A DNA stretch of 57,795 bases from Bacillota bacterium. GTDB taxonomy: Bacteria; Bacillota; Negativicutes; CTSoil-072. The notes beneath the pieces were generated by a model. That model saw only the letters and a list, made by a program, of their open reading frames with translations, was not told the DNA's origin and ran no database searches. Every line of letters begins with the position of its first letter. Positions within the stretch are counted from its first letter, which is position 1. This document shows positions 1,564 through 33,251 of this stretch, in pieces. Location of the stretch: positions 1-57,795 of the forward strand of contig JAGFZV010000028.1 in assembly GCA_017889545.1 (NCBI GenBank). Direction: 5' to 3'. A program made the translations under genes and the position numbers.

Positions 1564-3840
1564 ATGAAAGTCATGTACACCTGTCCTATGCATCCTGAGA
1601 TAGAGCAAGACCATCCAGGATATTGCCCTAAGTGTGGGATGACTCTGGAATTGCAAACACCCATAGCTGGAATAGATGCTGCAGAAACTGTTGAATTAAA
1701 GGATATGAGTAAGCGGTTTTGGATTGGAGCCGCATTGGCATTGCCGGTGTTTACCCTTGCTATGGCGCATGTCGTTCCGGGCTTGGACATGCAGTCTTGG
1801 GTAAATAGTGATGTTTCACGGTGGGTTCAGTTTGTGCTTAGCATACCGGTTATCTGGTGGGCCGGATGGCCATTTTTTGTGCGCGGTTGGCAGTCGCTTT
1901 TGACGCGGAATTTGAATATGTTTACTTTAATTTCGATTGGCGTTGGTGCAGCCTTCGCTTACAGTACCGTGGCAATGCTTGCGCCAAACATTTTTCCACC
2001 GTTGATGAAGCACGAAGGAATGGTCGCGATCTATTTTGAGGCAGCAGCAGTCATTGTGGTACTGGTTCTCCTTGGACAAGTGCTTGAACTCCGTGCTCGC
2101 AGTCGCACTGGCAATGCCATAAAAGCACTGCTGAATTTAGCGCCGCCCACAGCACGATTGGTAGTTGAACAAGGAGATCAAGAGATTTCACTCGACAAAA
2201 TAAAAGTTGGTGATTTGCTGCGAGTTGTTCCCGGGGATAAGGTGCCTGTCGACGGTGTGGTGGTTGAAGGACATTCCAGTGTGGAAGAGTCCATGATCAC
2301 CGGTGAACCATTGCCGGTGGAAAAAACTGCTGGTGACAAAGTAACAGGTGGAACCGTCAATGGTTCGGGCAGTTTTGTTATGCGAGCCGAACGGATCGGG
2401 CATGACACGTTACTCGGGCAGATCGTGACTATGGTTGCCGAAGCCCAGCGAAGCCGTGCGCCCATTCAGGGTCTTGCCGACAAAGTAGCCAGCGTGTTCG
2501 TTCCAACCGTATTGGCCATTTCAGCAATCACTTTTATTGTATGGATGATATTTGGCCCCGAGCCTCGTCTAGCTTACGCTATTGTCAATGCGGTCGCAGT
2601 TCTTATCATCGCCTGCCCCTGCGCTCTTGGGTTGGCCACACCAATATCTATCATGGTCGGGGTTGGACGTGGAGCACAGGAAGGGGTGCTCGTAAAAAAC
2701 GCCGAAGCATTTGAAAGGCTGGAGAAAATTGACACACTAGTTATAGACAAGACAGGGACCCTTACCGAGGGGAAACCTAAGATCACGGATATTATTCCGA
2801 TTGATAGGTACACTGAGCAGGATATTTTACGGCTTGCGGCTTCGTTGGAGCTAGTTAGTGAACACCCTCTTGCTGCTGCAATTGTGTTGGGCGCAAAAGC
2901 GAAAGGGATTGCAACCGAACCTTTAAAAGATTTTCGTTCGGTGACGGGTGGCGGAGTGATTGGCTCTGTTGACGGACGAGAGGTGATCATTGGCAAACCG
3001 GCCTTCCTGCGTGATGAAAAAATTTCCGGTTTGGATTTGCTTGAGAAATCTGCATTGCAACTCCAGGATGAAGGGAAAACCGTGATATATGTGGCAGTAA
3101 ACGGCAAACTGGCTGGCATTATTGCAGTCGCCGATCCTATTAAAGCTACTACCGCAGATGCCATAAATGAACTTCATGCACTTGGACTAACCATTGTTAT
3201 GCTCACCGGCGACAATCATCGCACTGCTGCGGTGGTCGCTAAGACACTTAATCTTGATGCGCTGGAGGCGGAAATTGAACCTGCCGGCAAAGTAGAGCAC
3301 GTGAAAAAGTTACAGAGTCAAGACAAACACGTTGCGATGGCCGGTGACGGGATCAATGACGCTCCCGCTCTCAGTGAAGCGGAAGTTGGTATTGCGATGG
3401 GCACGGGTACCGACGTGGCAATGCAAAGTGCAGGCATAACACTTGTTAAAGGCGACCTCCTTGGCATAGCCAAAGCCATTCGCCTTAGCCGATATACAAT
3501 GAGAAATATCAGACAAAATTTGGTATTTGCCTTTATCTACAATGTATTGGGAATTCCAGTAGCTGCAGGAATTCTTTATCCGTATTTTGGCCTGCTGCTG
3601 AGTCCGATCATTGCCGGTGCTGCGATGAGTTTAAGTTCGGTATCGGTCATTGGCAACGCTTTGCGATTGCGTGGGATTAACCTTGGAGCTAAATTGAAAG
3701 GAGGTGAAGTTATGGACAAAGAAAAAACATCTGAACAAAAGCCCATATACACTTGTCCAATGCATCCGGAGGTGCAGCAAGACCATCCTGGCAACTGTCC
3801 AAAGTGTCATATGACTTTGGAATTAAAAAAGTTGTCTTGA
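1564..3840 (+). CDS. copA: Copper-exporting P1B-type ATPase with terminal metal-binding domains
   Basis: A 758-residue P-type ATPase that should pump Cu+ out of the cytoplasm using ATP. Visible family marks are: CPC in the transport helix (about residues 351-353, [13 protein letters not shown]), the phosphorylated Asp395 in DKTGT, SEHPLA, MLTGDN and GDGINDAP. The last helices read YNVLGIP and [15 protein letters not shown], the Cu+ (P1B-1) signature. Instead of a CxxC HMA domain it has short heavy-metal-binding domains with the pattern YTCPMHPE...[10 protein letters not shown], one at residues 5-30 and a second at about 727-752. The C-terminal copy is unusual and is preceded by a perfect internal ribosome site (separate entry). 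It is co-transcribed with the SHOCT gene. Confidence 0.95.
3712..3840 (+). other. Possible internal translation start giving a free 42-residue metal-binding peptide
   Basis: In frame with copA, ATG 3712-3714 is preceded by AAAGGAGGTGA with 7 nt between GGAGG and ATG, an optimal ribosome site. The product ([11 protein letters not shown], then a [18 protein letters not shown] domain) would be a soluble 42-residue metal-binding peptide. Either a once-separate small gene fused to the ATPase gene, or both products are made, as E. coli copA makes a short chaperone by frameshifting. Seen: ribosome site and frame. Inferred: its use. Confidence 0.5.
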
Positions 3841-3856
3841 CAAGTAGGGCACTATA

Positions 3857-3883
3857 ATTGAAAGTCCCACTCCGGTACAGTCA
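3857..3883. repeat. 27-bp direct repeat, right copy
   Basis: Right-hand partner of the repeat at 23-49, 24 of 27 bases identical and in the same orientation. It sits in the 54-nt gap between the convergent copA and the truncated sigma-54 activator. The only open frame across it on the minus strand is about 16 codons and ends in a stop, so it is not a gene here. Confidence 0.6.
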
Positions 3884-3894
3884 GTCCGCTGTTT

Positions 3895-4848
3895 TTAATG
3901 ATCTAAGTTCAATTTGGTTAGACGGTATGTGATATGGTAATATTCTACATTTATCCCTTCGGATCGAAGTATATTTGCAATTTTTCTTGGCCCATAGCCT
4001 TGAGTTCTCAAGGCTACTATTTTTTTATCGATATATTGGTTGGAACTAAAATGTTTTTGTGGCGATGATATTTTGTAAGTTGATGTGGGGGGGCATGAAA
4101 TATTCACAACGATGTCTTGGGGAATATGTTGGTTATCTACAACAACATTTAAAGGAGTTGATTGATCAACAACGTTAAATATTGGAGGTGCTGCAGCATC
4201 AACTGAAGCATTGACAGCGTCACGAAATTGACGAATATTTCGCGGGTAATTGGAAGATATCAGCATATCCGTGGCTGAAGGAGTCACGGATAATTTTAAA
4301 TTAATCCCATAAATTTTTTTTGAGGATTCCTCATATTGTTTAAGAAAAACTTGCAGCATAGCCTGTTTTTCTTCGTTAGGACGATTTCGTAAAGGTTCTA
4401 AATGCAACGTATATTTAGCCAAGCGCTGGTACAGTTCAGGCATTAATTCCTTTTGCAGATCTTTAGTGGAGGCTGCAATGATAATAACATTTAGTTTTTT
4501 GCCTGTTCGGCCACCGACTCTTCTCAGCACACCTTCTTCAATGATTTTTAATAACATCGTCTGATGGGGACCAAGAGCATGTGCTTCATCGAGAAATATA
4601 ATTCCTTCGTCGGCTAACTCGAGCAATCCTTGTTTGTCAATTGCTCCAGTGAAAGAACCTTTTTCTGAACCAAAAATCTCTATTGCAGCAATATCAGGGT
4701 TTGTAAATTGGCCACAGTTGACATCAATAAATGGTGCATCGTTGCGCAATACTTTTATTCGTTTGGCAAATTGATAGATTGTTTTAGCAAAAACTGACTT
4801 TCCGGTTCCTGTTTCGCCAGTAATGATGCAATGACGAGGGCCGCCCAA
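3895..4848 (-). pseudogene. Sigma-54-dependent activator, 5'-truncated
   Basis: The protein begins almost at Walker A (GETGTGKS at residues 10-17) and continues with a GSFTGA loop (variant of GAFTGA, which contacts sigma-54), the Walker B-like IIFLDEAHAL, and a sensor region ending NYPRNIRQF. A C-terminal region with a helix-turn-helix-like segment (YGPRKIANILRSEGI) probably binds DNA. The AAA+ core normally starts about 30 residues before Walker A and follows a sensory domain; both are missing. The reading frame continues upstream of the TTG at 4848 with plausible sequence (LQAQRCIASLGG) but runs into the neighbouring synthase gene and then a stop, with no usable start. I infer that a deletion removed the 5' half. 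It probably once controlled the divergent gene at 4848-6005. Confidence 0.75.
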
Positions 4849-6005
4849 TGATGCGATGCAGCGCTGAGCTTGTAACGTTGCGGGACGGGGAACAGCAAAC
4901 CGGAGTTGTGTTTAAGAAAGATGATAAGATCGCGATTGCTGAAAAATTAGCGGAAGCCGGGGTGCATCGGATCGAAGCCGGGATGCCTGCTGTTTCCAAA
5001 GATGATGAGGCGGCTATCAAAGAAATAGTAAAACGAAATCTTGGTCCCAAAATTTTTGCTTTTGGCCGGTGTATGATTGATGATGTAAAACGCGCTGTAG
5101 ATTGTGGGGTAGATGGAATTGTAGTGGAAGTTCCTTCGAGTGAACATGTTATCAAACATGCGTATAAGTGGCCGCTGGAAAAAGCGGTAGATCTTTCAAT
5201 CAAAGCAACCAGGTATGCAAAAGAAAATGGGCTTTATACGGTCTTTTTCCCGATTGATGGGACAAGAGCTGATATTGACTGGTTTTTGACGTTAATAGAG
5301 AGAATTGCGAAAGAGGGTCATATGGATGCCTTAGCGGTAGTAGATACATTTGGCGGATGTTCACCGCATGCCATGCCATATTTGATGAAAAAAATAAAAC
5401 AACGCATCAATAAACCACTGGAAACCCATTTCCACGATGATTTTGGCCTTGCATCTGCGAATACTATTCTGGGTTTAGCTGCCGGTGCGAATGTTGCTCA
5501 TACGACAGTTTCTTCTATGGGCGAGAGAGCCGGAAATGCTTCCTATGAGGATGTTACTATGGCACTGCTGACGATGTATGGCGTTGATATTGGCATTAAA
5601 ACAGAGAAGATGTATGGGATATCTAAAATGGTTCGACACCTAGCAGGCATGTCAATTCGAAATAACCGAGGTATCGTTGGGGATAGCATCTTCAAAGTAG
5701 AATCTGGTATTGTTGCAGGATGGGCGAAGAATTGTGGCATGGAAAATGTTTTAGAATTGTTTCCGTATCGCTGGGACTTGGTTGGGCATGATCCGTATGA
5801 GGTTGTATTGGGCAAAAATAGCGGTGGCGATTCTGTGAAAATCTGGCTGGAACGTTTAGGAAAAACGGGTTCAAATAATTCGAATTTGGTAGTGTCAGAG
5901 GATAAAATTCTTGAAATAGTTCAAAAAGTCAAAGAACAGTCCTTCAAGAATAAAGGGTTGTTAAGTCTTAGCGAATTCGAGATTATTTTGAACAATTCAC
6001 TTTAA
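4848..6005 (+). CDS. HMGL/LeuA-family acyltransferase or lyase, N-terminally truncated
   Basis: A 385-residue TIM-barrel enzyme related to isopropylmalate/homocitrate synthases and HMG-CoA lyase. Metal and catalytic marks are the TLRDGEQ motif at residues 10-16 and the HxH pair His194/His196 (ETHFHDDFG). GERAGNA follows. Family members normally carry some 20 or more residues before TLRDGEQ. Here the preceding residues MMRCSAELV are simply the antisense of the adjacent activator gene, and no good ribosome site precedes the ATG. The gene therefore looks joined to a foreign 5' end and may be poorly expressed or inactive. The exact substrate cannot be told. A DapA-family gene follows after a terminator-like hairpin. 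Confidence 0.7.
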   Translation: MMRCSAELVTLRDGEQQTGVVFKKDDKIAIAEKLAEAGVHRIEAGMPAVSKDDEAAIKEIVKRNLGPKIFAFGRCMIDDVKRAVDCGVDGIVVEVPSSEHVIKHAYKWPLEKAVDLSIKATRYAKENGLYTVFFPIDGTRADIDWFLTLIERIAKEGHMDALAVVDTFGGCSPHAMPYLMKKIKQRINKPLETHFHDDFGLASANTILGLAAGANVAHTTVSSMGERAGNASYEDVTMALLTMYGVDIGIKTEKMYGISKMVRHLAGMSIRNNRGIVGDSIFKVESGIVAGWAKNCGMENVLELFPYRWDLVGHDPYEVVLGKNSGGDSVKIWLERLGKTGSNNSNLVVSEDKILEIVQKVKEQSFKNKGLLSLSEFEIILNNSL

Positions 6006-7411: not shown

Positions 7412-8038
7412 ATGAAAGTCGTTGCATTTAATGGGAGTCCAAAGCAAAAAGGAAACACGTATCATGCCATAAAAATGGTTGCGGAAGAACTTGAAAAAGA
7501 AGGAATAGAAGTTGAAATTGTTCATGTAGGCAACAAAGTCATCAGGGGATGTTTGGCTTGTGGCGCCTGCGCGGAAAATAACAATGAGAAATGCGTAATT
7601 GACGATGAAGTCAATGAATGGATACAAAAAATGAAAGCGGCAGATGGGATACTATTGGGATCGCCTGTCCATTATTCGGCTATAGGCGGAACGATGAAAT
7701 CCTTTTTGGACAGGGCATTCTATGTTGCCAAGACAGGGATTTTGCGACATAAGGTAGGGGCGGCTGTAGTTGCTGTCAGGCGATCAGGCGGGGTTCCTAC
7801 ATTTAATCAGTTGACGAACTATATTAATTATGCTGAAATGCTCATACCTACGACAAACTATTGGAATGTAATTCACGGGACGGCGCCAGGCGAAGCAGTA
7901 AATGATGAAGAAGGAAAACAGATCATGAGAGTTCTGGGGAAGAACATGGCATGGCTTATGAAGCTGGTGGAAAACGGAAAAGAAACCGTGAAAGAGCCAG
8001 AAAGCGAAAATAAAATATTTACTAACTTTATTCGATAG
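7412..8038 (+). CDS. Iron-sulfur flavoprotein-like NAD(P)H:FMN oxidoreductase
   Basis: Start at ATG 7412 because GCAGGAGGGAATAATT precedes it. The 208-residue product has the flavodoxin-like FMN fold: the phosphate loop FNGSPKQKGNT at residues 5-15 and GSPVHYSAIGGTMKSFLDR for the flavin ring. Cys47, Cys50, Cys53 and Cys61 form CX2CX2CX7C, the compact cluster motif described for archaeal and clostridial iron-sulfur flavoproteins, so a [4Fe-4S] cluster beside FMN is likely. It probably passes electrons from ferredoxin or NAD(P)H to small acceptors or oxygen species. It stands alone between spaced genes and ends in a strong hairpin. Confidence 0.8.
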   Translation: MKVVAFNGSPKQKGNTYHAIKMVAEELEKEGIEVEIVHVGNKVIRGCLACGACAENNNEKCVIDDEVNEWIQKMKAADGILLGSPVHYSAIGGTMKSFLDRAFYVAKTGILRHKVGAAVVAVRRSGGVPTFNQLTNYINYAEMLIPTTNYWNVIHGTAPGEAVNDEEGKQIMRVLGKNMAWLMKLVENGKETVKEPESENKIFTNFIR

Positions 8039-8907: not shown

Positions 8908-9642
8908 TTGAACGAAATCATCAATCTGTTGGCTTCTCATCAATCCATAAGAAAGTACAAGAATATACCCGTTCAAGAAGAAACAGTAAAGGAAATCATA
9001 ACAGCTGCCCAGTGGAGTTCCAGCTCGAGTCATTTTCAGGCTTATACCATCATCAATGTTAAAGACCCACAAAAACGAGCGGCCATAGCAGAGATTGCCG
9101 GGGGACAGCAATGGGTGGTCGATTGCCCGCTGTTTCTAGTTTTTTGCGCTGATCTACATCGAGCCCAAAAGTATTGGAAAAGGAAGGATGATCAGATTTT
9201 TTCTAATAATGAAATGTTTCTGATCGCAACTGTCGATGCTTCATTAGCTGGGCAACAGGCCTATATTGCAGCCTCGTCATTGGGGTTGGGCGGAGTTTAT
9301 GTCGGGGGGATCAGAAATGATCTTGATGCTATGGGCAAATTGTTGAACTTGCCATATTTGGTTTACCCGGTGTTTGGAATGTGCCTGGGGTACCCGGATG
9401 ATAATCCTGGACAAAAACCACGGCTCCCATTGGAAGCAATCTATAAAATAGATCAGTATGAGGAAGCGGGAGATGACAGTCGTATTGCTGATTATGATCG
9501 GGAAATAGCTGAGTATTACCGGCAAAGAACCAAAGGTAAAAGCCAAGATACCTGGAGCGAACGATGCGGGCGGCTGATGATGGAGAAACCTAGAGAAAAT
9601 TTAGGCAGAAGTATCAGAGATAAAGGTTTTAATCAAAGATAA
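8908..9642 (+). CDS. NfsA/Frp-family NADPH nitro/flavin reductase
   Basis: I place the start at TTG 8908, since ACGAGGTGG lies 6 nt upstream and homology begins at NEIINLLASHQSIRKYKN. The 244-residue protein is an FMN-binding nitroreductase: HQSIRKY at residues 11-17 contacts the FMN phosphate, SSSSHFQAYTII follows, and AASSLGLGGVYVGGIRND shapes the flavin site. The C-terminal half matches the NfsA/Frp branch (KPRLPLEAIYKIDQY, ending in an Arg/Lys-rich tail). Such enzymes reduce nitroaromatics, quinones or flavins with NADPH by two electrons. It begins 61 nt after tag, so read-through is possible. Confidence 0.88.
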   Translation: MNEIINLLASHQSIRKYKNIPVQEETVKEIITAAQWSSSSSHFQAYTIINVKDPQKRAAIAEIAGGQQWVVDCPLFLVFCADLHRAQKYWKRKDDQIFSNNEMFLIATVDASLAGQQAYIAASSLGLGGVYVGGIRNDLDAMGKLLNLPYLVYPVFGMCLGYPDDNPGQKPRLPLEAIYKIDQYEEAGDDSRIADYDREIAEYYRQRTKGKSQDTWSERCGRLMMEKPRENLGRSIRDKGFNQR

Positions 9643-9704
9643 GCGCTTGCTCGCTATCAATCACGAAACGCGAAAAAATGTGAACGAAGGTTTGCAGGAG
9701 TTTT

Positions 9705-9730
9705 TTTCTTATATTCCGAAATATAAGAAA
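9705..9730. repeat. Perfect 11-bp inverted repeat upstream of the RiPP precursor
   Basis: TTTCTTATATT (9705-9715) and AATATAAGAAA (9720-9730) are exact complements around a CCGA loop. It lies in the 243-nt gap before the precursor gene, about 155 nt ahead of its start. It could be an operator or a leader hairpin. Nothing else is recognised in the gap. Confidence 0.5.
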
Positions 9731-9885
9731 TTAAGTTGCTATCAAAAATTTAATGGTATCTATACGAAAAAAATATTTCTGACACGGGAGTTACTTTTTT
9801 CTTTGATTAGCGTTTATTGAATCAAATGAGAAGATCGATTGTTGTTTTATCTTGCTCGAAGCATAATTCAAAAGGAGGTGAAAAT

Positions 9886-10101
9886 TTGGAACAGAATACG
9901 AAAAAGAAAATCAGCAAGGCCGTTACTGCGGCAGCGGCGGGGATTGCATTGACCGTTATGGTTGGTCAAATCACACCCGTTAATTTGATTAATTTCGTGT
10001 GTGACTCTTCAAGTTATTCCGACGATCAGCTTTTTGCAGCTCAGGAATGCTGCGGTCCGTATCAACAATGTCAGTGCCCCAGTTTTAAAGGCGCTTCCTA
10101 G
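9886..10101 (+). CDS. Cys-rich RiPP precursor peptide with signal-like leader
   Basis: The start is TTG 9886, set by the near-perfect ribosome site AAAGGAGGTG 6 nt before it. The product has 71 residues: a charged start (EQNTKKKISK), a hydrophobic stretch (AVTAAAAGIALTVMVGQI) that resembles a signal peptide, then a C-terminal region with five Cys (NFVC, AQECCGPYQQCQCPSF). A radical SAM/SPASM maturase follows 129 nt downstream, the typical arrangement of a ribosomally made peptide with radical SAM-installed links, for example thioether bridges at Cys. The leader may direct membrane association or Sec export of the core. The peptide class and the modification are not identifiable from sequence alone. 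Confidence 0.7.
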   Translation: MEQNTKKKISKAVTAAAAGIALTVMVGQITPVNLINFVCDSSSYSDDQLFAAQECCGPYQQCQCPSFKGAS

Positions 10102-10169
10102 GATTCATCGGTAACGACATTTTAGCTATCATGTCATAATATAATCTGGCAGTTATTTGATGCAAGCCA

Positions 10170-10207
10170 AATAGGCTGGGATCTTTTTGAGACCCAGCCT
10201 ATTTTGA
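10170..10207 (+). terminator. Hairpin between precursor and maturase genes (attenuator)
   Basis: AATAGGCTGGG (10170-10180) pairs with CCCAGCCTATT (10193-10203), followed by TTGAT. It lies directly between the precursor stop and the maturase ribosome site. A partial terminator here would give more precursor than enzyme, a common RiPP layout (inference). Confidence 0.7.
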
Positions 10208-10230
10208 TACAAGCCTGGAGGAGAGATATA

Positions 10231-11595
10231 ATGAGAAAATTGCGTGTGAGCAGCTATCTGAACCATGTCGATATTGGAGACGGAAGTTCCCTGCTTTATA
10301 ATGGATTAACGCTGTGCATAGACCTTGTACCGACCCAATACATGGATCGCCTGTCACGTGGAGAAAACCCGTCTTTTCTCTTGATGGAAGAAAAGGAATA
10401 TCTCTTGAAACGGGGACATTTAACGGCTTTATCTATCAATAACGAGCGCAAGGAATTCCGGAAAACAGTGGATGCTATTTTAGAGCGGCGTAATCAATTG
10501 GACAGAAACTCAAAAGCCGCCACACTCTGCCTCCTGTTGACGTATGATTGCAATCTTGCCTGCAGTTATTGTTTCCAAAAATCTTTGCCGAATACAGTAA
10601 GAACAGCGGTAATGAGCGGAGAATTTATTGATGAATTTTTTACGGATTATTTTCCCCAGTTATATCCCAATGTCCCTGAAAATCTTTTAATCTCTTTATT
10701 TGGCGGGGAACCTTTGCTGGCGAAGAACCGGGAAGCGATTACGCGCGTTTTGGCTTATGCCAAAGAACACCCCGGTATTCGGGTTTCCGTATCGACCAAT
10801 GCGACCAATATAGCCGGAATGGCGGATTTGATCGGAGCGGAAAAAGGGAAGATCACGAATGTTCATGTTACTTTAGATGGTGATCGCGTATTGCACGATG
10901 AAAATCGGATTCCTAATTCCGGTAAACCGACATTTGATGCCATGATCGCTGCTATCAGGCAGTTAATTCAACTGAATGCTCATATTAGTCTTCGTGTCCA
11001 CATTCATCCTGAAAGACTGGAATCAGCCCAAAACCTTGTTGAATATCTCGATAATGAAAAAATATTGGGTCATTCCCAAGTTTCTGTTTATTTTTCACCA
11101 ATCAATACGTTTGGCAGTGAAAACATTTCATTGGCTGATGCGGACATATTCAACCAAACTTTTCAGAAAGTCGCATTTAAGACGAATTACCCGCCATCCA
11201 ATCTTGCTTTTATCGATAATTTTTTAAAGATGCAGGATAAAAAACTTTTGCCAAAAGTCAGATATTGTGCTGCTGGAAGCGATAATTTTTATATTGTAGA
11301 TCCTTCGGGGGATCTTTACGCTTGTTATGAGGAAGCCGGACATAAGGATCGACGGATTGGAACGCTTAGGAATGGGAAAGTAAAAATAACAGCATTGAAA
11401 GAAAAATATTCCAAGCGCCACCTGCTTAAAATCACTGAATGCATTCGTTGTTCTGCAGCGCTGTTTTGCGGCGGAGGATGTCCTAGTGAAGCGAGAATGC
11501 AGAAAGGCTCAATGTATCAATCTTATTGCCATCAGAATAAGGAATTTATTGCTCAAACGATGAAAGCGTTCTTTCTATTGAACCGCAATGGATAG
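10231..11595 (+). CDS. Radical SAM/SPASM peptide maturase
   Basis: Start at ATG 10231 with GGAGGAGA upstream; 454 residues. The radical SAM cluster motif CX3CX2C is Cys107, Cys111 and Cys114 (CNLACSYCF), followed by LFGGEPLL, the usual SAM-binding GGE. The C-terminal SPASM domain shows its full Cys pattern: C(x13)GX4C around 346-365, then CX2CX5CX3C (CIRCSAALFCGGGC) and a final Cys, so two auxiliary [4Fe-4S] clusters are expected. The N-terminal ~100 residues probably include the leader-recognition region. The partner is the Cys-rich peptide just upstream. The likely product is a cross-linked peptide (thioether or C-C). A terminator follows, so the ABC genes downstream are separate transcripts. 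Confidence 0.9.
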   Translation: MRKLRVSSYLNHVDIGDGSSLLYNGLTLCIDLVPTQYMDRLSRGENPSFLLMEEKEYLLKRGHLTALSINNERKEFRKTVDAILERRNQLDRNSKAATLCLLLTYDCNLACSYCFQKSLPNTVRTAVMSGEFIDEFFTDYFPQLYPNVPENLLISLFGGEPLLAKNREAITRVLAYAKEHPGIRVSVSTNATNIAGMADLIGAEKGKITNVHVTLDGDRVLHDENRIPNSGKPTFDAMIAAIRQLIQLNAHISLRVHIHPERLESAQNLVEYLDNEKILGHSQVSVYFSPINTFGSENISLADADIFNQTFQKVAFKTNYPPSNLAFIDNFLKMQDKKLLPKVRYCAAGSDNFYIVDPSGDLYACYEEAGHKDRRIGTLRNGKVKITALKEKYSKRHLLKITECIRCSAALFCGGGCPSEARMQKGSMYQSYCHQNKEFIAQTMKAFFLLNRNG

Positions 11596-11629: not shown

Positions 11630-11660
11630 AAAGCCGTAATGAAAATTGCGGCTTTTTTTA
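11630..11660 (+). terminator. Intrinsic terminator of the RiPP maturase gene
   Basis: AAAGCCG pairs with CGGCTTT (11630-11655, with an inner AT/AT pair) and runs into TTTTTTT. Good rho-independent terminator. Confidence 0.85.
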
Positions 11661-11980
11661 ATGCATCAGAAAAAAAGACGAAAGATCGAAAAAGATCCAG
11701 TTCAGGTCAAGGACATTATCACATAATCTGGAATAGGTTATCGACTTATGGGACAATGAGACATAAATTGCTGTGTCCTCCCAGGCATGTATAATGATCA
11801 AACCTGTTGCTTAAACAAAAAATACGAGTTGGCAGTCAATCGGTTAAGCAACACAAGAGGTCTTATATGTTATTATAACGAATAAAATAATATGAAGTAC
11901 CTTGTTCGATAGTTCTCATTAACCTGGAAGATGATCATCTTGAAACCAGTTTGAACATAGCTCAAAATGGGGATGATGCG
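11661..11980 (+). promoter_or_regulatory. Upstream region of ABC efflux operon with spaced inverted repeat
   Basis: This 320-nt stretch has no gene. GTTGCTTAA at 11806-11814 and TTAAGCAAC at 11844-11852 are exact inverted copies 29 nt apart, suited to an operator or a long leader hairpin. The efflux operon must start here. A confident -35/-10 pair was not found. Confidence 0.4.
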
Positions 11981-13237
11981 TTGAATTTATCATTATATAT
12001 AGGGTACCGCGCTTTGCTGGCTAGTCGTCGTAACACTCTTATTTTGGTGGCTAGTGTCACTATGACGGTGGCAGTATTCTTAGTCATGTCCTCATTGCTG
12101 TTTGGGTTTCGAAATGAATTTATTAGTAAGACCGTCAATGCAACGGCGCATGTTCGTATTACTGCTGATGAATTGGAAAAGTTTGAGCAACCGGCACGCC
12201 TGTCTTCTTTTGTGGATGCGGAAATTAAACAAATTGAACATATTAAGCCATCGCAGCAATACAACAAAATTCGCAATAGTGCGCTCATAATTAAAGAATT
12301 GGAAGGAACAAGCGGGGTAGAGGGAATTTCACCGACCTTGGCTGCGAATGTACTGATAAAATATGGCTCGATCATATATCCCGCGTCCGTATATGGGATC
12401 GTACCCGATTCGGAAGATCAGCTGACTGATTTATACTCTAAGGCGATAGAAGGAAAAGTGCAAGATTTAAAAACGCAAGATAAAGGCATCGTCATTGGGA
12501 AAATTATTGCTGCGAAATTGGGTCTCGGGATCGGCAATACAGTGAAACTGGTAGCACGAAATGGATCAAGTTTCGATTTTCGTGTGGTGGCGATTGTGCA
12601 GACGGGAATTACTTCACAAGACGAATCGAAACTGTGGACGAGACTGAAAGATGCCCAGGTCCTCGCTAATCAATATAATGAAATTACCGATATTGGGATC
12701 AAGTTAGCGGATTATGAAGAAGCAGAAGCTTATGCCGCAAGTTTCGCAAAAAAATTTGGTTACAAAACGGAAAGTTGGCAGGTTGCCAATTCAAATATTT
12801 TAAGCTTGCTGGTTATTATCTTTGCGAATATTTATTTTGTAATCGGGGGCCTTTTGTTAGCGGCAGCTTTTGGTATTTATAATGTGTTTTCCATGTCAGT
12901 AATTGATCGGCGTCGTGACTTGGCAATTATGCAAGCATTAGGGTTAACCAATGCGACAATTAGCCAAGGCTTTTTTTTTCAAGGCTTGGTCGTCGGTGTC
13001 ATTGGTGGAATTATGGGATTGTTGATCGGACAAATATTAATCGAAATATTTTCTCAGCTAACGTTTGGACAATCCGGATCAGGTTTGACAAATGCCCGTG
13101 GGTTCGTGATGTTAAAAGTTTGGTGGCTATACGCAGCTTCTTTCTTAATAGGTGTTCTATTGGCGGTGATGTCGGCTATTCTGCCGGCCTATAGGGCCGG
13201 TACGGTTGATCCTGTAGAAGTGATCCGGGAGGGCTAA
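11981..13237 (+). CDS. FtsX/LolE-type ABC transporter permease (first)
   Basis: About 418 residues from TTG 11981; the frame also allows TTG 11951, and neither has a convincing ribosome site, so the start is uncertain. Layout is of the FtsX/MacB permease class: one membrane segment near residues 20-42 (LILVASVTMTVAVFLVMSSLL), a long extracytoplasmic domain of about 230 residues, then three membrane segments (about 270-300, 325-350 and 378-405). The cytoplasmic coupling motif IDRRRDLAIMQALGLT sits after the second segment. It ends PVEVIREG, the usual C-terminus. It pairs with the second permease 3 nt downstream. The set probably moves lipophilic or peptide molecules across or out of the membrane. 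Confidence 0.85.
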   Translation: MNLSLYIGYRALLASRRNTLILVASVTMTVAVFLVMSSLLFGFRNEFISKTVNATAHVRITADELEKFEQPARLSSFVDAEIKQIEHIKPSQQYNKIRNSALIIKELEGTSGVEGISPTLAANVLIKYGSIIYPASVYGIVPDSEDQLTDLYSKAIEGKVQDLKTQDKGIVIGKIIAAKLGLGIGNTVKLVARNGSSFDFRVVAIVQTGITSQDESKLWTRLKDAQVLANQYNEITDIGIKLADYEEAEAYAASFAKKFGYKTESWQVANSNILSLLVIIFANIYFVIGGLLLAAAFGIYNVFSMSVIDRRRDLAIMQALGLTNATISQGFFFQGLVVGVIGGIMGLLIGQILIEIFSQLTFGQSGSGLTNARGFVMLKVWWLYAASFLIGVLLAVMSAILPAYRAGTVDPVEVIREG

Positions 13238-13240
13238 TGA

Positions 13241-14470
13241 ATGTATTTATATATTGCCTGGCGACAGATCATTTTTCGGCGGCGGCAGTCGATTGCCAGC
13301 ATCTTTAGCATCGCTTTGGGAGTTGGCTTGTTTATTATGATGAGCAGTATGCAACAAGGGTTTGAGGAAGATTTTACAAATAGAGTAATTTCTGTTACTC
13401 CGCATGTTCAGATAACGGCTGAACGCGTCCGGCCGGTTCCGGATATGGGAAGGGAACAATATGACATCACTAACGTTTTACATGTTCAGGCTTTTGATAA
13501 AATAGAAATTATCAACGGTGCAGCATACTTGCAAAACCAACTCAATACTATGGAAGATGTTGTTGCAGTAGGAACAAATTATACCGGACAAGGATTAATC
13601 ACTTATGGCAATCGCGATATTGCCATTGTTGTGCGGGGTATTGATCCAGAGAAAGAAGAAAAATTGAATGGTTTTTCCGGTAAACTGAAATTACGTCATC
13701 AGGATTCATTAAACTTGATTTCGAATGCAATCATTCTAGGGAATGGGGTTGCTAAAACTCTTCAAGCATCGATCGGTGATACGGTGACGTTGGTGACCGA
13801 CAGTGGGAACCAGGACTTATATCGTGTAGTGGATATATACCAATCGGGCATTACAGCTTTTGATAATAAAACGGTATTTGTTTTGCTGAAAAACAGCAAA
13901 GCGTTATTTGGTGCTGATGGGCCAAACGGCATCAATATCAAGATAAAAGATCCATACAAAGCGGAAGCCTTTGCAGCAAATATATCAGATATGACTGGCC
14001 TCAACGTCAAAAATTGGATCTCCGAAAACTCCAATATTCGAGCTGAGTTGTATCGGAGAAGATGGATTAATCAATTCATCGTTGGCACAATTTTTCTCGT
14101 GGCAGGCTTCGGAATTGCCAATATTATGTTGATGAATGTTATGAGCAAACGAAGGGACATCGCAATCATGCAGGCTTTTGGCGTCAGTCCCCAATCCATT
14201 GATATGATTTACTTGATACAAGGATGCATTTTAGGGGCTTTTGGAGCTTTTCTGGGCTGTTTGTTAGGCGCTGCTTTGAATATTGGTTTGGAAAATATCC
14301 CCGTGAGTTTCAATGCCCAGTTGACACGAGAAGGATTTCCCGTAGCTTGGAACAGCCGCATTTTCTTTCAAGGATATTTTATGGGTATAGTGATTAGTAT
14401 CGCAGCCAGCTTTTTCCCTGCAAAAAAAGCGGCGGCCATTTTGCCGGCAGAGGTGATAAGACGTGGATAA
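13241..14470 (+). CDS. FtsX/LolC-type ABC transporter permease (second)
   Basis: 409 residues with the same layout as its neighbour: membrane segment at about 17-38 (ASIFSIALGVGLFIMMSSM), a large external domain, then three segments in the last 150 residues, with SKRRDIAIMQAFGVSPQ as coupling motif and a C-terminus PAEVIRRG. The two permeases are homologous but divergent, so the transporter core is probably a heterodimer. Start 3 nt after the first permease stop and an 8-nt overlap with the ATPase gene indicate tight translational coupling. Confidence 0.88.
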   Translation: MYLYIAWRQIIFRRRQSIASIFSIALGVGLFIMMSSMQQGFEEDFTNRVISVTPHVQITAERVRPVPDMGREQYDITNVLHVQAFDKIEIINGAAYLQNQLNTMEDVVAVGTNYTGQGLITYGNRDIAIVVRGIDPEKEEKLNGFSGKLKLRHQDSLNLISNAIILGNGVAKTLQASIGDTVTLVTDSGNQDLYRVVDIYQSGITAFDNKTVFVLLKNSKALFGADGPNGINIKIKDPYKAEAFAANISDMTGLNVKNWISENSNIRAELYRRRWINQFIVGTIFLVAGFGIANIMLMNVMSKRRDIAIMQAFGVSPQSIDMIYLIQGCILGAFGAFLGCLLGAALNIGLENIPVSFNAQLTREGFPVAWNSRIFFQGYFMGIVISIAASFFPAKKAAAILPAEVIRRG

Positions 14471-15188
14471 AATTATGGAATTGCAAGATGTAGGCAAAGT
14501 GATGACAACGGGCGGTACAAATTTTCCGATTTTAAGTCAAGTGAACTTAACTTTTTATAAAGGAGAATATTGTGCTATTGTTGGCAATTCCGGATCAGGG
14601 AAAAGCACACTGCTTTATTTGTTAGGCGCATTGGATCGCCCAACGTCTGGCACAATTAAGATTGACAATGTGGATGTATCGCAAATGTCTTCGCAGTCGT
14701 TAGCAAAACTGCGTAATGAAAAAATTGGTTTTGTTTTTCAGTTTCACTATATCTTGCCTGAATTCACTGCTTTGGAGAATGTGATACTGCCGATGATAGT
14801 AGCAGGGACATTGTCTGAAAAAAAGCGTCAAGAACGAGCGGCTATGCTCCTAGGTACATTGGGGCTATCCGATCGTATGGATTATTATCCGGCTCAATTA
14901 TCCGGCGGTCAATTGCAAAGGGTAGCGATTGCCAGGGCTTTGGCGAATCAACCATTACTTGTATTGGCGGATGAACCAACAGGAAATTTGGATAGCCGGA
15001 ATTCAGAACTGGTATTTGATTATTTTCGGAAGCTAAACGAAGAATTTGGCCAGACTTTCATTATCGTGACGCATAATACTAGTTTTGTTAAAGACTGTGA
15101 TCGGATTATTACTTTGGCGGATGGCAGGGTTGTGAGTGACGCTGCGGCTGGATTGTGCTTGCGGGAAAGGGGAGACAAAATGCCATGA
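14463..15188 (+). CDS. ABC transporter ATPase, LolD/MacB type
   Basis: 241 residues with a complete nucleotide-binding domain: Walker A GNSGSGKST (about 38-46), Q-loop VFQFHYILPEF, signature LSGGQLQRVAIARAL (about 142-156), Walker B LLVLADEPTGNLDS, and the switch His in VTHN. It belongs to the LolD/MacB/FtsE-like group that works with FtsX-type permeases by mechanical coupling. The start GTG 14463 overlaps the end of the second permease gene. The stop overlaps the start of the adaptor gene (ATGA at 15185-15188). It powers the efflux set. Confidence 0.92.
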   Translation: MDKIMELQDVGKVMTTGGTNFPILSQVNLTFYKGEYCAIVGNSGSGKSTLLYLLGALDRPTSGTIKIDNVDVSQMSSQSLAKLRNEKIGFVFQFHYILPEFTALENVILPMIVAGTLSEKKRQERAAMLLGTLGLSDRMDYYPAQLSGGQLQRVAIARALANQPLLVLADEPTGNLDSRNSELVFDYFRKLNEEFGQTFIIVTHNTSFVKDCDRIITLADGRVVSDAAAGLCLRERGDKMP

Positions 15189-16216
15189 AAACAAAATTCA
15201 TCTGGGCTATAATGCTTCTGCTGTTTGTGTTAGCAGGCGTTTATTGGTTTTGGTTTCGGCCGGTTCAGGTTAAAACGGAGGCTGCTGACTATGGGTCAGT
15301 TGCTGTATTTGTTTACGCATCCGGTCAGGTTATTCCGGAAGAAAAAGTCATTGTTCGCAGCAAAAATCCCGCTAGAATTGAAAAGATATTCGTAGTAGAG
15401 GGCCAAAAAGTCCAGAAGGGGCAACCGCTTGTGTTGCTGGAAAACAGTGAAACTACGGCCCAATATGAATTGGCGGTAGCGGAGCAAAGCCAAAAAGAAG
15501 CCGATTACGCTTTTGCTCTCCGGGAAAAAAACCGTTATGAACAACTATTGCAAAGTGAAGCAGTGGCAAGACGGGATTATGACCAAATCGCTACTCAGGC
15601 CGAAGGAGCGAGGCTGCAAGTTCTTAGAGCGCAAGCGAATGTATCATCTTTTTTGGCCAAAAATGCCGAAATGACAATCTTAAGTCCTTTTGATGGCACT
15701 GTTTTGGAAAAAATACTCGATGCCGGAACGGCAGTAGGCACGAATGACGGCATTTTGGTCCTGGCAAAACAAGGGAAGATGCAGGTGGAGGGAAAAGTTG
15801 ATGAATTGGATGCAGCAAAAATTGCAGTAGGTCAGAAAGTGCTGCTTACATTTGATAGCTTTGGCGGCCAGGTATATCAAGGCAAAGTGGCGACACTTGC
15901 TCCCCGTATTGATAATGCGACAAAATCCTTTAAGATCAAAGTAGATGTATTGGAAGATATAGCAGTCCAACCAGGAATGTCTGCGGAATTAAATATTTTG
16001 CTATCAGAAAAAAAACGGGCTGTACTGATTCCTGTTTCTGCCTTGACCGGTGACCAAGTTTTTATTGTTAAAAACGGTCGGGCCGCTTCTAAAACTGTTA
16101 CCGCAGGTATTCGGGACAGTAAAAAAGTTGAAATTATTGCTGGCATTGAACAAGGAGAAGCGGTGATTTTAAATCCCACAGAGATCAAAGAAGGTACTTC
16201 GGTGGTTGTTCCTTAA
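15185..16216 (+). CDS. HlyD/MacA-type periplasmic adaptor (membrane fusion protein)
   Basis: 343 residues from ATG 15185, which overlaps the ATPase stop and is preceded by AAAGGGGAGA. An N-terminal anchor helix (about residues 6-24) is followed by a barrel-sandwich/lipoyl half (VIVRSKNPARIEKIFVVEGQKVQKGQPLVLLEN), an alpha-helical hairpin (about 95-150), the second lipoyl half (NAEMTILSPFDGTVLEKIL), and beta-barrel and membrane-proximal domains. With the two FtsX-type permeases and ATPase this is a MacAB/Lol-like envelope exporter. An adaptor is consistent with a diderm cell, as in Negativicutes, though MacA-like adaptors also occur in monoderm Firmicutes. The substrate is unknown; the neighbouring RiPP is a candidate. 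Confidence 0.88.
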   Translation: MKTKFIWAIMLLLFVLAGVYWFWFRPVQVKTEAADYGSVAVFVYASGQVIPEEKVIVRSKNPARIEKIFVVEGQKVQKGQPLVLLENSETTAQYELAVAEQSQKEADYAFALREKNRYEQLLQSEAVARRDYDQIATQAEGARLQVLRAQANVSSFLAKNAEMTILSPFDGTVLEKILDAGTAVGTNDGILVLAKQGKMQVEGKVDELDAAKIAVGQKVLLTFDSFGGQVYQGKVATLAPRIDNATKSFKIKVDVLEDIAVQPGMSAELNILLSEKKRAVLIPVSALTGDQVFIVKNGRAASKTVTAGIRDSKKVEIIAGIEQGEAVILNPTEIKEGTSVVVP

Positions 16217-31664: not shown

Positions 31665-33251
31665 ATGAATTTGAAGCAGGCAGGAAGCGGTGCTGATGTG
31701 GATGAACGCTTGGCGGCGCTGATGACGAATGCGAATGCTGTCAGGGCAATTACTGCCGCGGTAGAGGGTACGATAGGTCCGAAGGGACTCGATACTATGC
31801 TGGTGGACCGTTTTGGCGAAGTGATTATTACGAATGACGGTGTAACGATTTTAGATAAGATGGATGTCAATCATCCTGCAGCGAAAATGTTGATTAATAT
31901 TGCCAAAGCCCAACAGGCTGAGGTTGGTGATGGGACGACGACCGCTACGATTATGGCCGGAGCGTTGGTTACCGAAGGCGTAGGCCAGGTTTTGCGCGGG
32001 GTCCCGGTAGCCCGGGTTATTGAAGGAATCCGGTATGGTGTGAAACAGGTTCTGAGCCAGATTGAGGAACGGGGCCGCAAAGTAACCGATATACAGGATC
32101 CGATTTTGCGCAATATTGCTATGATTGCCGGCAGGGAGTATGAAGATATTGCTGACCTGGTAGTGGAAGCGGTGCAATTGATTGGGGTAGAAAAACTCTG
32201 TGAACAACATTTCAAACTGTCGGATATCATTACGGCCGAGGAAGGCGCCGGCAATGAAGTGTTTATGGGCGTTATTGTTGATAAAGAACGTATGAATCAG
32301 GAAATGCCTGCCGAGATGATCGATGCGAAGGTTTTGTTGGTGGATGATGCGCTGGAACCGGAAGAAATGGAAGATGAAGCGTTAAGCACGGAAACAGGAT
32401 TTAAGCGTTATATTGATTTTCAGGACGAGTTTAAATGCAACGTGCAGAAAATTGTTGATTTGGGGGTAAAGGCTGTCTTGGTGGACCGCGGCGTTCATGC
32501 GATGGCTGAAGAACTGCTGACCGATGCCGGGGTGCTGGTTATCCAGCGAGTTGCCAACAAAGATTTGCGGCGAGCCTGTGAACATGTCGGCGCCAGAATG
32601 ATTAAACGAACCGGTTTAAAAAAGGATATTGCTGATATTGAGAAATATCTTGGTTTTGCTGCCCGGATATATGAAGATGAAAAGCTCCGGCAAATTCGTA
32701 TCCTAGGCGGCGGTGGCAAGCCGATGGCGACTATTTTAGTGGGCGCGGCAACGGAGGAAGTGGTCGGTGAAAGAGAACGGATCGCCAAGGATGCCGCATC
32801 AAGCGTACAGGCAGCCATTCGCGGCGGATATGTAGCCGGCGGCGGGGCGACTGAGATTGCCATGGCACGGCAAGTGGAAAAAATGCGGGACAATGTGAAA
32901 GGAATGGCTGCTTATGGCGTGGATTGCGTAGCAAACGCGCTGAAAAAGCCGTTAACACAGATTGTTCAAAATGCCGGTTTTAATCCGTTGGAAAAAGTGG
33001 AAGAGGTAATGGCCGCCCAACTGAAGGCCGGCAGTGATACTTTGGGGATTGATTGCGATACCGGGTTGGTTGCCGATATGTTGTCTCAGGGAGTCGTTGA
33101 TCCTGTACCTGTCAAATACCATGCAATCAAAGCAGCCGCTGAGGTTGCGGTTGCTATTCTGCGAATTGACACGATTATCAAGAAAAAAGAAGAGGGGGCT
33201 CCTGCCGCGAAAGCTGCAGGCGGCGTTGAAGCCGGAATGCCCGACTTTTAA
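31665..33251 (+). CDS. Group III (archaeal-type) bacterial chaperonin
   Basis: 528 residues resembling the archaeal thermosome/CCT, not GroEL. Marks are GTIGPKGLDTMLVD (about 37-50), ITNDGVTILDKMDVNHPAAKML, the ATP-site GDGTTTATIMAG at residues 88-99, GREYED, VSRE-like ATEEVVGERERI and the C-terminal GGVEAGMPDF (thermosomes end with GGM repeats and an acidic tail). It has a built-in-lid apical region and should need no GroES. Group III chaperonins are known from some anaerobic Firmicutes such as Carboxydothermus, and there too they sit in the dnaK operon between hrcA and grpE. A GGGGAGGTG ribosome site precedes ATG 31665. HrcA/CIRCE control is likely. Confidence 0.95.
   Translation: MNLKQAGSGADVDERLAALMTNANAVRAITAAVEGTIGPKGLDTMLVDRFGEVIITNDGVTILDKMDVNHPAAKMLINIAKAQQAEVGDGTTTATIMAGALVTEGVGQVLRGVPVARVIEGIRYGVKQVLSQIEERGRKVTDIQDPILRNIAMIAGREYEDIADLVVEAVQLIGVEKLCEQHFKLSDIITAEEGAGNEVFMGVIVDKERMNQEMPAEMIDAKVLLVDDALEPEEMEDEALSTETGFKRYIDFQDEFKCNVQKIVDLGVKAVLVDRGVHAMAEELLTDAGVLVIQRVANKDLRRACEHVGARMIKRTGLKKDIADIEKYLGFAARIYEDEKLRQIRILGGGGKPMATILVGAATEEVVGERERIAKDAASSVQAAIRGGYVAGGGATEIAMARQVEKMRDNVKGMAAYGVDCVANALKKPLTQIVQNAGFNPLEKVEEVMAAQLKAGSDTLGIDCDTGLVADMLSQGVVDPVPVKYHAIKAAAEVAVAILRIDTIIKKKEEGAPAAKAAGGVEAGMPDF

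Follow-up and report, generated by a model that had tools for sequence, protein, structure and literature searches.

A radical SAM/SPASM maturase paired with a Cys-containing precursor that bears a Sec-like leader: a probable rare RiPP subfamily

Does a short gene whose product ends in a CC pair and a CxC, and which lies directly before a radical SAM/SPASM gene, encode a modified peptide, and to which class would such a peptide belong? The question concerns positions 9886 to 11595 of a contig from a Bacillota bacterium (JAGFZV010000028.1), of which the whole stretch of 57,795 nucleotides was analysed and is called the window. The original prediction was a RiPP outside the known classes, with a five-Cys precursor, a signal-like leader and a SPASM maturase. 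The features of the locus are as follows.

9871-9885, + strand: Shine-Dalgarno region AAAGGAGGTGAAAAT, directly 5' of the TTG start (from the sequence)
9886-10101, + strand: RiPP precursor gene, 71 aa (homologues adjoin the maturase orthologues in loci L032, L033 and L038)
9901-9963, + strand: Sec-signal-like N-terminus, residues 6-26, KKKISK followed by the hydrophobic run AVTAAAAGIALTVMV (KD15 value and likeness in three relatives)
9964-9987, + strand: leader motif GQITPVNL, residues 27-34 (G[QK]I[TI]P[VIL]NL in 4/4 precursors; unique in the genome)
10045-10098, + strand: probable core ECCGPYQQCQCPSFKGAS, 18 aa (comparison with two relatives, 18 and 19 aa from the [DE]CCGP start)
10168-10205, + strand: stem-loop between precursor and maturase (folding, about -22 kcal/mol, z -4.1)
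10231-11595, + strand: radical SAM/SPASM peptide maturase, 454 aa (domain models, alignment and orthologues)
11630-11660, + strand: intrinsic terminator-like hairpin with a T run, 3' of the maturase (terminator scan and folding)

The maturase is complete, as had been claimed. It matches Radical_SAM PF04055, scores above the cut-off of the SPASM model TIGR04085 (48.6 bits, cut-off 27) and carries both the CxxxCxxC motif (C107/C111/C114) and seven SPASM cysteines (residues 346, 365, 404, 407, 413, 417 and 433), the combination that marks a radical SAM/SPASM RiPP enzyme. All of these cysteines are invariant in the five enzymes aligned. The closest solved structure is 5wgg/5why (E 4e-21, match spanning residues 85-438), the thioether-forming SCIFF maturase CteB. 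The AlphaFold model computed from a three-sequence input had a pLDDT of 50 overall and below 50 in residues 1-94, too poor for a fold search or for the recognition of a leader-binding domain such as the PqqD-like N-terminal domain of RRE-containing maturases.

The precursor gene begins with TTG behind a strong Shine-Dalgarno sequence (upstream string AAAGGAGGTG), and a near-identical string, AAAGGAGGTGAAAATATG, precedes the start of its relative in a Smithellaceae genome. The translation, MEQNTKKKISKAVTAAAAGIALTVMVGQITPVNLINFVCDSSSYSDDQLFAAQECCGPYQQCQCPSFKGAS, contains five cysteines (residues 39, 55, 56, 62 and 64), including the predicted CC pair (55-56) and CxC (62-64). KKK occupies residues 6-8 and the hydrophobic run residues 12-26; the KD15 hydrophobicity of 2.12 is reached by 1.2% of shuffles. 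A match of the precursor to xanthine phosphoribosyltransferase was rejected as chance (16 bits, cut-off 177).

The transcription unit probably consists of the precursor and the maturase alone, because a terminator-like site follows the maturase and a hairpin stands between the two genes. The latter is probably a partial terminator or an mRNA stabiliser, and an analogous hairpin lies 3' of the Smithellaceae precursor gene (-28 kcal/mol, z -4.9). Rfam gave no match near the pair.

Three maturase orthologues, 53-62% identical to the window enzyme, were identified: L032 in a Smithellaceae MAG (62%), L033 in an Oligoflexia MAG (60%), both found by scanning genome contigs, and L038/L039 in genome G535 (53%), which belongs to the phylum of the Smithellaceae genome. 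In all four loci, the window included, a precursor ORF of 64-96 aa lies within about 130 bp of the maturase gene. Each of these precursors begins with a K-rich, hydrophobic and signal-like segment, carries G[QK]I[TI]P[VIL]NL in its leader and ends in a short Cys core, so the predicted signal-like leader holds for every member. The Oligoflexia precursor (78 aa, MKKSKVQKAVVVAAYAMALTAMTDSAVTNASTYAKVGKITPINLISSSTTTDFGSNQVVSECCGPYSQCFCGSAFIGG) and that of G535 (96 aa, MKKSRLAKVLSVSAAIALAGTTGAGAAEPDK...GKITPLNLRGG...SGCNCLCAVRG) are encoded upstream of the maturase, and the Smithellaceae precursor (64 aa, MKNSKVANAVVTVATGVTLAVMVGQIIPVNLLSGSTDFSLTQVNADCCGPHPMTGCPDMVPITK) directly downstream, with the gene order swapped.

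The pairing of precursor and maturase is beyond chance, and the case for it is stronger than originally put. About 1.6e-7 occurrences of the eight-residue motif are expected in a 90-aa ORF, and the one instance of the corresponding DNA pattern in the host genome lies within the precursor gene. A leader-and-core precursor beside its modifying enzyme, the two conserved together, was thus found in the window and at three orthologous loci. The original prediction had proposed a search for homologous pairs and an alignment of their cores; this search placed a precursor beside all three close orthologues and gave no class match. Moreover, it added two elements, the conserved motif and the [DE]CCGP start of the core, which that prediction had not contained. 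In L039 the maturase is followed by a gene for a radical SAM C-methyltransferase of RiPP maturation (586 bits with TIGR03975, cut-off 282), which is independent support for the RiPP reading. It is reasonable to regard the window precursor as very probably modified by the adjoining maturase.

The leader motif is kept in all four precursors while spacers and cores diverge, and GQITPVNL is proposed as the maturase recognition site. Three of the four cores follow [DE]CCGPxxxxxC, with 18, 18 and 19 residues from [DE]CCGP to the end, and the fourth (G535) has CxCxC (CNCLC) without CCGP; in the window, ECCGPYQQCQCPSFKGAS is the probable core peptide. The five cysteines originally described are those of the window copy, but they do not define the family: the relatives have 3, 4 and 3, and Cys39, in the spacer, has no counterpart in the alignment. 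A definition by a five-Cys core was therefore dropped.

Members of this family are very sparse, and only four are known. Among 150 relatives searched at E 1e-40, the window itself was the sole maturase match, and it was likewise the only close match among 380 genomes of its class. The other enzymes found in these genomes are 25-30% identical, and several of them adjoin Nif11-like, SCIFF or Clo7bot-like precursors. A profile of three orthologues matched 1 of 299 genomes from the phylum to which the window belongs (the window itself), 2 of 395 from that of the Smithellaceae genome and 1 of 291 from that of the Oligoflexia genome; a five-row profile, run on 155 genomes of the class that includes the Smithellaceae genome, matched 1, namely that genome. 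Viral contigs searched with the maturase and precursor profiles contained no relatives, and plasmids yielded maturase matches below 30% identity and no precursor. The sparse occurrence of the family across phyla at 53-62% identity suggests that the pair probably spread horizontally.

The Oligoflexia genome encodes a second SPASM enzyme, L037, 35% identical. The peptide upstream of it, MKNEFLIESLNVKSGEALTLEKAEDRVEFEALISFGSADQPSSNDDLTCSCYDSQKCWDWW, has neither ITPxNL nor a hydrophobic run, its KD15 of 0.57 being a value that 38% of shuffles reach. As this peptide lacks both the stretch and the motif, the signal-plus-motif leader appears to be a property of the close clade and not of the wider enzyme group, and a change in the enzyme appears to go with a change in the leader. 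The L037 locus (G381:C398, 201-3121, - strand), with its SPASM maturase and soluble-leader peptide ending in TCSCYDSQKCWDWW, also contains as its next gene one for a 429-aa membrane protein with no Pfam match, M50-peptidase-like by eye (HEIGH).

The most probable explanation, held with some confidence, is a two-gene RiPP locus in which a precursor with a Sec-type signal, a recognition motif and a Cys core would be cross-linked by thioethers, exported by Sec and trimmed outside. The modification, the bond type, Sec export, the cleavage site and the biological role are what we infer from the sequences. The precursor would consist of the K-rich start and hydrophobic stretch as signal, of G[QK]I[TI]P[VIL]NL for recognition, and of a C-terminal Cys core starting at [DE]CCGP. 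A cytoplasmic radical SAM/SPASM enzyme would bind the leader, probably through ITPxNL, and generate a 5'-deoxyadenosyl radical, its auxiliary iron-sulphur clusters helping to install cross-links at the core cysteines. These cross-links would most likely be thioethers, each with a loss of 2 Da. The modified peptide would then enter the general Sec route, the leader would be removed outside the cytoplasm, and a product of about 18-19 residues would act in the periplasm or outside the cell, either as a bacteriocin-like peptide or as a metal- or redox-active Cys peptide.

As to the class, the pair fits no catalogued group and looks like a small new family of peptides that are modified and secreted. 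By model score, the nearest families of the window enzyme are peptide maturases: PapB (NF047865, 122.8 bits, cut-off 340, the best family-model score), TIGR04463 (120.8 bits, cut-off 525), CefB (120.2 bits, cut-off 600) and SCIFF (TIGR03974, 117.4 bits, cut-off 425), followed by the geopeptide (115.7 bits, cut-off 400) and Clo7bot (106.4 bits, cut-off 600) maturases. Every equivalog match is below one half of its curated cut-off. Pfam and NCBIfam gave no meaningful match for any of the four precursors, some classes being without a precursor model, and none of the curated precursor classes (Nif11-like, Clo7bot and others) had a model match. The earlier failure to assign a known class is thus borne out for both genes.

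The pair could instead belong to an existing bond class as a member with a new sequence and an unusual leader, its chemistry being that of an ordinary ranthipeptide or sactipeptide. We regard this reading as unlikely but worth weighing, as the top family matches are ranthipeptide/SCIFF-type maturases and 5wgg/5why is the closest solved structure. PapB or freyrasin-type ranthipeptides likewise arise from a SPASM enzyme acting on a Cys peptide, but the window differs from them in its Sec-like leader and in a score far under the cut-off. The PapB ranthipeptide motif is Cys-X3-Asp/Glu (PMC9413430), and the window core contains no such spacing. SCIFF maturases likewise have seven SPASM cysteines; however, the SCIFF precursors of the class relatives are soluble, about 46 aa long and six-Cys, whereas those of the window family have a signal-like leader and 3-5 cysteines, and the soluble six-Cys pattern of about 45 aa was not found in the window precursor. 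The similarity to the TIGR04463, CefB, geopeptide and Clo7bot maturases is nearly full-length and includes the N-terminal region, but it reaches 18-29% of the cut-off scores and has no precursor match beside it. Furthermore, a tree of 16 enzymes places the four pair enzymes in a clade of their own (99/100), apart from the SCIFF, Clo7bot and Nif11 maturases, although long branches make the deeper order unsafe.

The stronger claim would be a distinct RiPP class with a true Sec signal, recognition at ITPxNL after this signal, passage of the cross-linked peptide through the Sec translocon and, in some hosts, finishing by a caspase-like CHAT protease. We hold this claim only tentatively, as an unlikely extension. 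In the two longer precursors, a spacer parts the signal from the motif, and the two therefore look like separate elements. In the precursors of the window and L032, the hydrophobic run leads straight into ITPxNL with no obvious signal peptidase site, so the run could be a recognition helix instead of a signal. A clear AxA-type site, AGAA|EPDK, was seen by eye only in the L038 precursor. The best reading of the sequences is a new and rare subfamily of radical SAM RiPPs with a Sec-like leader and not a categorically new system.

Bufferins are a precedent for RiPP precursors with Sec-type signals (PMC12452194). Such signals on bacterial precursors are rare and have been called 'highly unusual', and Sec export has been experimentally shown only for the bufferins, which are MNIO-modified (PMC12452194). 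Bufferins and oxazolins likewise derive from Cys precursors with a Sec signal that are modified and then exported (PMC12452194), but their modifying enzyme is an MNIO, whereas that of the window family is a radical SAM enzyme; no MNIO was seen among the neighbouring genes examined. A SPASM-modified family with a Sec-like leader, a compact motif and a Cys core of 18-19 residues would be a test case for how a radical enzyme in the cytoplasm beats Sec to its substrate, and also for whether a cross-linked peptide can pass through Sec. The precursor and maturase form a small two-gene unit that is easily reconstituted. A literature search for this precursor type, or for CHAT domains together with RiPPs, found nothing relevant.

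The bond itself might be of another kind. Instead of thioethers, the enzyme could form a cyclophane or other C-C bond at the Y or H after CCGP, epimers or a peptide-derived cofactor, with the cysteines binding metal or forming disulfides. Each of the three CCGP cores does carry an aromatic residue (Y, H, Y) after this element, a free CC...C would be well suited to bind metal, and bufferins offer a parallel as Sec-exported Cys peptides that bind copper (PMC12452194). This is nevertheless improbable, since the nearest enzymes form thioethers and the fourth core has no aromatic residue at that position.

About 360 bp downstream of the maturase, on the same strand, lies an exporter cassette (11951-16216) of two LolC/E-like permeases, a LolD-like ATPase and a membrane fusion protein. 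Darobactin is thought to exit through DarBCD, and its system (DarE with DarBCD) likewise combines a SPASM maturase with a nearby exporter of the MacB/LolCDE type that includes a membrane fusion protein; the window pair differs in having no darobactin-type core and no DarBCD-type export genes conserved with it. That the hydrophobic segment of the same RiPP pair is a recognition helix only, and that the product leaves by this LolCDE-like ABC exporter and membrane fusion protein, is more doubtful still: the cassette is rare (2 of 100 class genomes searched) and its ATPase and adaptor match DarD (193 bits) and DarC (34 bits), among many others, but these scores are far below the cut-offs and exceeded by LolD and MacB, a strong terminator-like site separates maturase and cassette, the nearest relative of the cassette, in G021 (54%), occurs without the pair, and no exporter was seen at the other three pair loci within the stretch read. 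On the last three grounds the cassette was also rejected as a core part of the system.

Two of the four loci offer a candidate for the final cut of the favoured Sec-exported peptide, a TPR-CHAT protein that resembles a protease and has a signal-like N-terminus. A divergent TPR-CHAT gene, the sole CHAT match of its genome, stands on the other side of the maturase in L039, and a homologue (38% over 1010 aa) lies about 3 kb downstream of the precursor in L032. Both proteins have signal-like N-termini and, by eye, retain both the H and the C of the CHAT site. Neither the host genome nor that of the Oligoflexia MAG gave a CHAT match, and a CHAT protease was therefore rejected as a general part of the system; it can only be, if that, a lineage-specific finishing protease.

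Other genes near the L032 pair were also recorded. Two small Kunitz/BPTI proteins with signal-like N-termini (7518-7889 and 9622-10026; 50 and 22.5 bits, cut-off 21) flank the pair; Kunitz domains are uncommon in bacteria. A second SPASM enzyme (9914-11113), nearest to the GDL-motif peptide maturase model TIGR03913 but below its cut-off, directly follows the precursor and a Kunitz gene. A 1012-aa fusion of PDZ, thioredoxin, WD40 and caspase (C14) domains is encoded at 2938-5976, with the CHAT gene on the opposite side of the pair.

Elsewhere in the window, a TCP-1/thermosome-like chaperonin (31665-33251) is encoded between the hrcA-like and grpE-like genes of a dnaK cluster. It scores 383 bits with Cpn60_TCP1 and 317 bits with the thermosome model, under the subtype cut-offs but better than with GroEL, and presumably resembles the archaeal-type chaperonins of a few Firmicutes.
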